A stretch of DNA of 64,000 nucleotides from Watersipora subatra (taxonomy: Eukaryota > Bryozoa > Gymnolaemata > Cheilostomatida > Watersiporidae): contig NC_088711.1 of assembly GCF_963576615.1 (NCBI RefSeq), forward strand, positions 61,608,248-61,672,247, read 5' to 3'. Shown here in pieces: positions 61,012-61,977 of this stretch; within the stretch, counting starts at the first letter, position 1, and every line of letters starts with the position of its first letter. The notes under the pieces are model-generated. The model saw only the letters and a list, made by a program, of their open reading frames with translations. It was not told the DNA's origin and made no database searches. Both the position numbers and the translations under genes were made by a program.

Positions 61012-61016
61012 CTCAT

Positions 61017-61062
61017 GCTACAGACAGTACTGTTTCGGCTATTGAAGCCTCATCAGTGCAGC
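61017..61062 (-). ncRNA. Type I hammerhead ribozyme, copy 1
   Basis: Minus strand: stem I GCTGCA, core CTGATGA, stem II GGCT-tcaat-AGCC, core GAAA, stem III ACAG/CTGT with a 2-base loop (its first pair uses the last A of GAAA and the U of the cleavage triplet), GTC, then stem I TGTAGC. Stem I pairs over 6 bp with one G-U. Predicted cleavage between 61023 and 61022. The very short stem III suggests that cleavage works best in dimers or tandem transcripts, as known for this class. Confidence 0.9.
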
Positions 61063-61275
61063 TCAGAGCTTAGGCAAGGGACACAAATCCCATTACCAAT
61101 GAGAGTTGACTTCCTGCCATGAAACAACTAAGTTGCCTCGCAGACTTTAAGAAAGCTAATGTGCTGGCACCAGAGTGCTCAAATCACAAAAGTGATGAGC
61201 TTTGCACAAAGGCTAATAGTGCCGCACCTCTCACAGAGTGCTCAACCAAACCGAAGCAAGGGAGCATATACTCAT

Positions 61276-61321
61276 GCTACAGACAGTACTGTTTCGGCTA
61301 TTGAAGCCTCATCAGTGCAGC
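61276..61321 (-). ncRNA. Type I hammerhead ribozyme, copy 2
   Basis: Sequence identical to copy 1. Predicted cleavage between 61282 and 61281; the monomer released between this and copy 1 would be 259 nt. Confidence 0.9.
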
Positions 61322-61534
61322 TCAGAGCTTAGGCAAGGGACACAAATCCCATTACCAATGAGAGTTGACTTCCTGCCATGAAACAACTAAGTTGCCTCGC
61401 AGACTTTAAGAAAGCCAATGTGCTGGCACCAGAGTGGTCAAATCACAAAAGTGATGAGCTTTGCACAAAGGCTAATAGTGCCGCACCTCTCACAGAGTGC
61501 TCAACCAAACCGAAGTAAGGGAGCATATACTCAT

Positions 61535-61580
61535 GCTACAGACAGTACTGTTTCGGCTATTGAAGCCTCATCAGTGCAGC
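61535..61580 (-). ncRNA. Type I hammerhead ribozyme, copy 3
   Basis: Identical to copy 1; cleavage predicted between 61541 and 61540. Confidence 0.9.
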
Positions 61581-61793
61581 TCAGAGCTTAGGCAAGGGAC
61601 ACAAATCCCATTACCAATGAGAGTTGACTTCCTGCCATGAAACAACTAAGTTGCCACGCAGACTTTAAGAAAGCCAATGTGCTGGCACCAGAGTGCTCAA
61701 ATCACAAAAGTGATGAGCTTTGCACAAAGGCTAATAGTGCCGCACCTCTCACAGAGTGCTCAACCAAACCGAAGTAAGGGAGCATATACTCAT

Positions 61794-61839
61794 GCTACAG
61801 ACAGTACTGTTTCGGCTATTGAAGCCTCATCAGTGCAGC
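61794..61839 (-). ncRNA. Type I hammerhead ribozyme, copy 4
   Basis: Identical to copy 1; cleavage predicted between 61800 and 61799. First ribozyme met by a minus-strand transcript of the array. Confidence 0.9.
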
Positions 61840-61977
61840 TCAGAGCTTAGGCAAGGGACACAAATCCCATTACCAATGAGAGTTGACTTCCTGCCATGAA
61901 ACAACTAAGTTGCCTCGCAGACTTTAAGAAAGCCAATGTGCTGGCACCAGAGTGCTCAAAAGTGCATCAGAGTGCTC

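Follow-up and report, generated by a model that had tools for sequence, protein, structure and literature searches.

Retrozymes of the metazoan non-LTR kind, with type I hammerhead ribozymes, are known from coral, mussel and axolotl, and the parts of PMC7229834 drawn on here report co-occurrence of Penelope-like elements (PLEs) for the species analyzed in that paper, which proposed in 2020 that circular RNA returns to DNA when the enzyme of a PLE or LINE copies a primed circle. The main text of that paper nowhere uses the word 'microsatellite', and in the literature searched this term and 'retrozyme' come together only in a paper on a plant retrozyme and in a curation guide. Some of the non-LTR retrotransposons with a restriction-like endonuclease (R2, R4, HERO and others) do target microsatellites, according to the sections of PMC4640811 used here.

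The element considered here lies in a 64-kb stretch of the Watersipora subatra genome (the window, meaning this whole stretch), and by its sequence features it is very probably a retrozyme of the metazoan non-LTR kind. Like those treated in the available parts of PMC7229834 it is a multicopy tandem repeat with a type I hammerhead and no LTRs seen, and its unit of 259 bp and 46.7% GC falls inside their range of 150–450 bp and below 50% GC. It departs from them in having a fixed edge that adjoins (TA)n, 11 nt beyond the cut, a co-located R2-like LINE, and no PLE as seen by PF01541. The type III retrozymes of the same source are also hammerhead-bearing and non-coding, and by analogy a circular RNA intermediate would be expected here, although the type I ribozyme, the unit of 259 rather than ~700 bp and the absence of an LTR arrangement set the present element apart from them. 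With PLEs that carry minimal hammerheads, as far as the consulted text of PMC11167929 describes them, it shares a hammerhead, tandem organization, AT-rich targets and, as proposed below, internal initiation of reverse transcription. The flanking LINE resembles the R2/R4/HERO group (PMC4640811, in the sections used) in its R2-like reverse transcriptase and TA-rich junctions, whereas the retrozyme itself is non-coding, unlike retrotransposons of that group. A literature search that took in few subscription journals gave no report of hammerhead ribozymes in Bryozoa, in keeping with the original prediction that the locus may be undescribed, and the designation of the array as an animal retrozyme candidate in that prediction also stands.

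The array and its hammerhead motifs

The array (positions 61012–61977) runs on the minus strand, which is the ribozyme-bearing RNA sense, and comprises 3.7 copies with a period of 259 and a 99% match by TRF (Table 1). The original prediction had described four minus-strand hammerheads with CTGATGA and GAAA cores and a GTC cleavage triplet, at a cut-to-cut distance of 259 nt, and both points are borne out: the 34-nt core CTGATGA...GAAAC...GTC occurs four times in identical form, and the predicted spacing is exactly 259 nt in all three intervals. A type I descriptor (stem I of at least 5 bp, stem II of at least 3 bp, applied to both strands) picks out these four sites alone across the window and gives no hit in 60 dinucleotide shuffles. 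Any two of the three full units differ at two or three positions. Metazoan non-LTR retrozymes lack LTRs, a primer binding site and a polypurine tract, and between the TA tracts on either side of the array there is nothing other than the repeated units and a 17-nt filler.

Table 1. Features of the array and its flanking tracts (window coordinates).
Feature	Positions	Strand	Evidence
Hammerhead copy 4 (RNA 3'-most)	61012..61068	-	Predicted cut 61023/61022; exact core, descriptor, sub-threshold RF02275
Hammerhead copy 3	61271..61327	-	Predicted cut 61282/61281; exact core, descriptor, sub-threshold RF02275
Hammerhead copy 2	61530..61586	-	Predicted cut 61541/61540; exact core, descriptor, sub-threshold RF02275
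Hammerhead copy 1 (RNA 5'-most)	61789..61845	-	Predicted cut 61800/61799; exact core, descriptor, sub-threshold RF02275
Full 259-nt unit, cut to cut	61023..61281	-	TRF and core spacing
Full 259-nt unit, cut to cut	61282..61540	-	TRF and core spacing
Full 259-nt unit, cut to cut	61541..61799	-	TRF and core spacing
Truncated unit, variable array edge (RNA 5' side, putative last cDNA part)	61800..61960	-	99.4% identity to a unit over 161 nt
17-nt filler resembling unit pieces, at variable edge	61961..61977		Direct reading
Fixed junction of (TA)n with CTCATGCTAC, putative reverse-transcription priming site	61011..61012		43/45 arrays start <=8 nt away
(TA)51 microsatellite, putative target, priming side	60910..61011		TRF
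(AT)50 microsatellite, other half of putative target tract	61978..62077		TRF

Elsewhere in the window, the TA tract of the array also holds an element of ~585 bp (62078–62662) with inverted ends CAGTGCTGTCAGAAATTATGAGACCACC (one mismatch) and (TA)17 beyond it, which we take to be Tc1/mariner-like. In each of two paralogous segments (15590–21155 and 36670–41273), a frame resembling a nucleotidyltransferase adjoins long TPR arrays whose repeats measure 132 bp. One long frame of the window matches W. subatra at 75% over 81% of the query and, less strongly, Bugula neritina. There is also a P2X-like frame, for which a protein search gave two matches, and retrotransposon pieces on the minus strand at 6826–10264, with Pfam RVT_2 and a retroviral-polymerase SH3-like domain, are presumably Copia-like.

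Read by eye, stem I of the hammerhead is GCUGCA/UGUAGC, with an outer CUC/GAG past an internal loop, stem II is GGCU/AGCC, and stem III is ACA/UGU with a GUAC tetraloop, the further pairs proposed by the script being set aside because they would leave a 2-nt loop. A stem III of two pairs with a tetraloop, which the parts of PMC7229834 drawn on describe for invertebrates, is a feature ascribed to the present element as well. The claim that these are perfect, full type I hammerheads holds for the core, the stems and the spacing, but not for the predicted folding, in which the 57-nt motif prefers an alternative structure (-15.3 kcal/mol, compared with -11.7 for the hammerhead), although such energies take no account of loop-loop contacts or dimers. 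Since ACAGUACUGU is self-complementary, dimer formation between two motifs is another possibility, and dimeric hammerhead pairing is described for amphibians in the same parts of PMC7229834. As a circle, the minus-strand unit is matched or exceeded in stability by one of 200 shuffles (z -2.62), and the plus-strand unit by four of 200 (z -1.94).

A covariance-model search, which the original prediction had named as a check, returned nothing for the array at the Rfam gathering score, so that the canonical type I hammerhead of metazoan non-LTR retrozymes is recognized here by the descriptor and by Rfam only below threshold. With the thresholds relaxed, each of the four sites is matched by Hammerhead_HH9 (RF02275), at 21.7–23.5 bits where the gathering score is 52 and with E values of 0.004–0.016 for the 1.2 kb searched; many of the relaxed Rfam matches lie in the TA tracts.

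The element is dispersed and multicopy. The exact 34-nt core has 1091 matches in the genome, and the reversed control pattern has none; a 17-nt piece spanning the cut has 1683 matches and an exact 29-nt TA junction 607, and the core has no match in the viral contigs of the one other collection scanned. In the unit search, 40 of 1434 first-look candidates were scored and gave 116 matches, which were grouped by hand into 40 loci on many contigs (the window and 39 fetched loci), and 45 arrays were read at these. The loci are the best-scoring ones and so are biased toward intact, young copies. One diverged retrozyme (L056:3129-3504), with 76–83% identity to the window unit and changes in its hammerhead, one of them in the core, perhaps represents an older subfamily.

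It is conceivable, though quite improbable, that the hammerhead has lost its activity and that the family spreads as uncut RNA in the manner of a SINE. The more stable alternative fold and the absence of an Rfam match at threshold point in this direction, as does the presence of some difference in 21 of 121 aligned hammerhead segments, nine of them, in our reading, at catalytic-core bases. Against it, every aligned base is kept in the other 100 segments, and 63 of 73 full units retain the exact 34-nt core. Core conservation is nonetheless weak evidence either way, because the family is young and the sampling leans toward copies that resemble one another.

Array edges and TA tracts

The TA tracts that flank the array do not figure in the original prediction, and we judge them its most important feature. 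Alignment to the unit begins no more than 8 nt from one and the same unit position in 43 of the 45 arrays, and in 39 exactly at it, whereas the other ends are scattered over unit positions 23 to 259. In the RNA sense the fixed edge lies on the 3' side and reads ...ACUGUC/UGUAGCAUGAG-UAUAU, with 11 nt from the cut to UAUAU. A DNA end TATATA can pair with this UAUAU, and its extension gives CTCATGCTACAGACAGT, the sequence found beside (TA)n. Five TA repeats occur within 40 nt of the array in 41 of 45 cases on its left side, and the count is the same (41 of 45) on its right side; among control bins they are present in six of 1509 from elsewhere in the window and in 21 of 560 from the outer portions of the loci that were fetched. 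Target-site duplications exceed 4 bp when present in known retrozymes, and any here would be masked by (TA)n on both sides.

A less selected sample is provided by contig C1, where the exact 29-nt TA junction is present at 35 of 65 loci. Twenty of the 30 others were fetched, and in 16 of these the break is at that point or a few bases from it, in most cases next to TA. The breakpoints of L065, L079 and L082 have only short TA or AT-rich sequence, and the sites in L067, L073, L074 and L080 are internal to arrays.

The combination of one fixed and one scattered edge beside (TA)n is, with high probability, the product of reverse transcription primed by TA. Four loci (L009, L028, L043 and L044) contain arrays in opposite orientations, each with its own TA-side junction, and these facing arrays are compatible with priming by either strand of the TA tract, which is self-complementary. 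The scattered ends are not fully random, in that 12 of 43 fall within one 15-nt span, a clustering reached by three of 10,000 random sets, and this perhaps marks a structure that halts the enzyme. Both exceptions to the fixed start (L010 and L011; C6:57362200-57364200 and 51056500-51058500) are copies of one duplicated locus, in which the RNA 3' edge is followed by A8 and the RNA 5' edge lies exactly at the hammerhead cut; the latter is also the case at one independent locus, L037. At L010/L011, cut RNA was possibly inserted via a different priming route.

An ordinary satellite, expanded by unequal crossing-over, with the TA tracts arising by slippage of the ATATA in the unit and the hammerhead as a passenger, would account for tandem arrays with high within-array identity, and ATATA does lie in the unit at the junction. 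However, the arrays are short and dispersed over many contigs, they have a common start and scattered ends, and TA is present at the variable edge too. This edge pattern largely refutes the satellite reading, which we regard as very improbable indeed.

Full units differ at a mean of 0.94 positions per pair within arrays and 3.72 between arrays (69 units in 38 arrays, with the duplicates L011 and L035 dropped), a contrast reached in none of 10,000 label shuffles, and in nine of 18 multi-unit arrays a private variant is common to all full units. The original prediction took the near identity of the copies as a sign of youth. That reasoning is in part mistaken, because similarity within an array is expected if the units came from one circle, although the small differences between arrays (a mean of 3.72 of 259, on the best-scoring loci) do suggest that the family is young.

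An R2-like LINE beside the arrays

At 13 of the 40 loci the flanking sequence that was fetched contains a piece of one repeat, a LINE; without duplicates this is 12 of 38, where ~0.5 would be expected for 38 independent loci. Reciprocally, the retrozyme is present in three (L054, L056 and L061) of 14 LINE loci that were not chosen for it, where ~0.1 would be expected; both expectations use rough first-look candidate numbers (1434 for the retrozyme unit and 8286 for the LINE) and assume no clustering. The 14 loci were taken by score (L050–L060) and for long frames (L061–L063), and L049 was left out because it overlaps the query locus.

Three whole LINE copies measure 3453–3454 bp from a common 5' motif to GAGGAAACAA, and the copy at L061 has an open frame of 1123 aa. 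The frame matches RVT_1 (E 7e-28), and its best PDB relatives are R2 retrotransposon proteins (E 4e-31), ahead of LINE-1; a zf-RVT match falls below cut-off, and the C-terminal part has no PDB match. By eye, the region after the reverse transcriptase shows a possible CCHC motif and possible restriction-like endonuclease motifs. All 150 LINE matches scored are 95–100% identical to the query, with no internal stop in 149, and the named teleost relatives, among 120 of the 308 listed, are 53–67% identical and carry no clade names. From its sequence, the flanking LINE is R2-like, young and abundant. Soon after its start (L061:545, L062:625, L063:533), which reads GGACAGATAGCGCAGTTGG, GTTCAAACCCC follows. 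These two sequences resemble tRNA A and B boxes, and there is no tRNA family among the Rfam matches for the LINE.

The LINE likewise adjoins TA-rich DNA. Seventeen LINE ends with GAGGAAACAA, at 15 loci (L049–L063), lead into T-rich sequence that gives way to TA-rich sequence, with only a short TA stretch in L057, L058 and L062; on the 5' side, a TA-rich tract precedes the copies at L061 and L062, and there is no long TA tract at L063. The LINE beside the array at L041 has a deviant 3' end, GTTTACAATATG. Comparison of the LINE 3' UTR with the retrozyme gives chance-level matches only, apart from (UA)n, and with no convincing common 3' sequence we therefore propose (UA) complementarity as the link between the two elements.

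Two other relationships were considered and rejected. A hammerhead inside the LINE is not indicated, the sole descriptor match in L061–L063 being the adjacent retrozyme. Template jumping as the source of the adjacency was set aside, in our reading, since the two elements occur both in the same sense (L024, L034/L035, L040 and L061) and with their 3' ends facing (L013, L028, L041 and L071); common target sites thus fit the adjacency better. Whether the LINE supplies the enzyme of the retrozyme is, on these observations, an evenly balanced question, and the common sites may mean only that there are two TA-preferring enzymes.

The same retrozyme, with the same TA-primed insertion, could instead be mobilized by a Penelope-like element; the original prediction had mentioned Penelope-linked ribozymes as established in animals. 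PLEs have been proposed as strong candidate helpers for animal retrozymes (PMC7229834, in the parts drawn on), and a PLE protein cuts AT-rich DNA and initiates reverse transcription within its own RNA (PMC11167929, in the consulted text). However, a whole-genome search for GIY-YIG domains (PF01541) yields one match among 16 candidates, all of them scored, in a search whose sensitivity for bryozoan PLE endonucleases is uncontrolled and from which PLEs lacking the endonuclease would escape. The frame of this match, FYGCYLLVS...GWTYIGFTVDPNRRINQHN, reads like that of host SLX1. As the only GIY-YIG match is SLX1-like, no Penelope element is seen by PF01541, which makes a PLE less likely, and the connection is not supported here: it is the R2-like LINE that shares insertion sites with the retrozyme. 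We consider the R2-like LINE the likelier mobilizer and Penelope a rather unlikely one.

The retrozyme itself shows no sign of being a PLE. No stop-to-stop frame of at least 110 aa overlaps 61012–61977, and in contrast to the PLEs of PMC11167929, as described in the text consulted, it has no coding capacity and a canonical rather than a minimal ribozyme.

A proposed route from RNA to array

The motifs, the 259 period, the 1091 cores, the edges, TA on both sides, the homogeneity of arrays and the co-location of the LINE are features of the sequence, and from them we infer a cycle of cleavage, circularization, copying of a circular template and partnership with the LINE. Minus-strand transcripts of an array would self-cleave at each type I hammerhead to give 259-nt RNAs, which would be ligated into circles. 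At a nicked TA microsatellite, a TATATA 3' end would anneal to the UAUAU of a circle, 11 nt downstream of the cut, and reverse transcription would cross the ligated cut site and continue for one to several laps (up to 5.4). Synthesis would stop at variable points, leaving a tandem array in (TA)n with one fixed and one variable edge. The enzyme would act in trans, most likely that of the abundant R2-type LINE whose copies likewise join TA-rich tracts. We lean modestly toward this explanation in its complete form, that is, a non-autonomous retrozyme, a circle, a TA-primed rolling copy and an R2-type LINE in trans.

Since the copied sequence extends over the cut site, the template cannot have been a monomer cut at that point, whereas it can have been a circle or an uncut multimer. 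Differences within arrays that are much smaller than those between them favor one circular template per array, although homogeneity could also arise by gene conversion or from a uniform multimeric template. In the alternative, a multimeric, uncut read-through RNA of an existing array would be copied from UAUAU, which would also account for the exact period of 259 and for copies that extend over the cut site. A multimer transcribed from a mixed array would not, however, yield private variants across all full units, as seen in half of the multi-unit arrays, and from the RNA 5' edges exactly at the cut in L010/L011 and L037 it appears that cut RNA serves as template on some occasions at least. 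The multimer appears a rather unlikely template, and we think it reasonably probable that the template is circular rather than multimeric and linear.

More generally, circular hammerhead RNAs of animals might enter the genome by rolling-circle target-primed reverse transcription with a TA-directed R2-type LINE that would nick (TA)n and extend the TA end on the UAUAU of the circle, this UAUAU mimicking the (UA)n in which the LINE RNA ends, a tentative extension to which we give slightly less than even credence. If it is true, the retrozyme would be a parasite of the LINE by target complementarity, without shared 3' sequence, and not a satellite of Penelope.

The element probably gives rise to a self-cutting RNA, and by its sequence it belongs to a known kind of retrozyme, within which its insertion footprint appears to be new. 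It adds the phylum Bryozoa to the candidate hosts of retrozymes, none having been found reported there in the literature searched. The 1091 exact cores lie in a chromosome-scale assembly, where the footprint can be read: the proposed priming is mainly at a single site, the target is of one type, the ends are scattered, and a LINE with open frames is a candidate for the enzyme. The primer, the template and the enzyme can thus each be tested. The novelty lies in the mode of insertion, in that the near-constant start beside TA runs suggests how retrozyme RNA becomes DNA.
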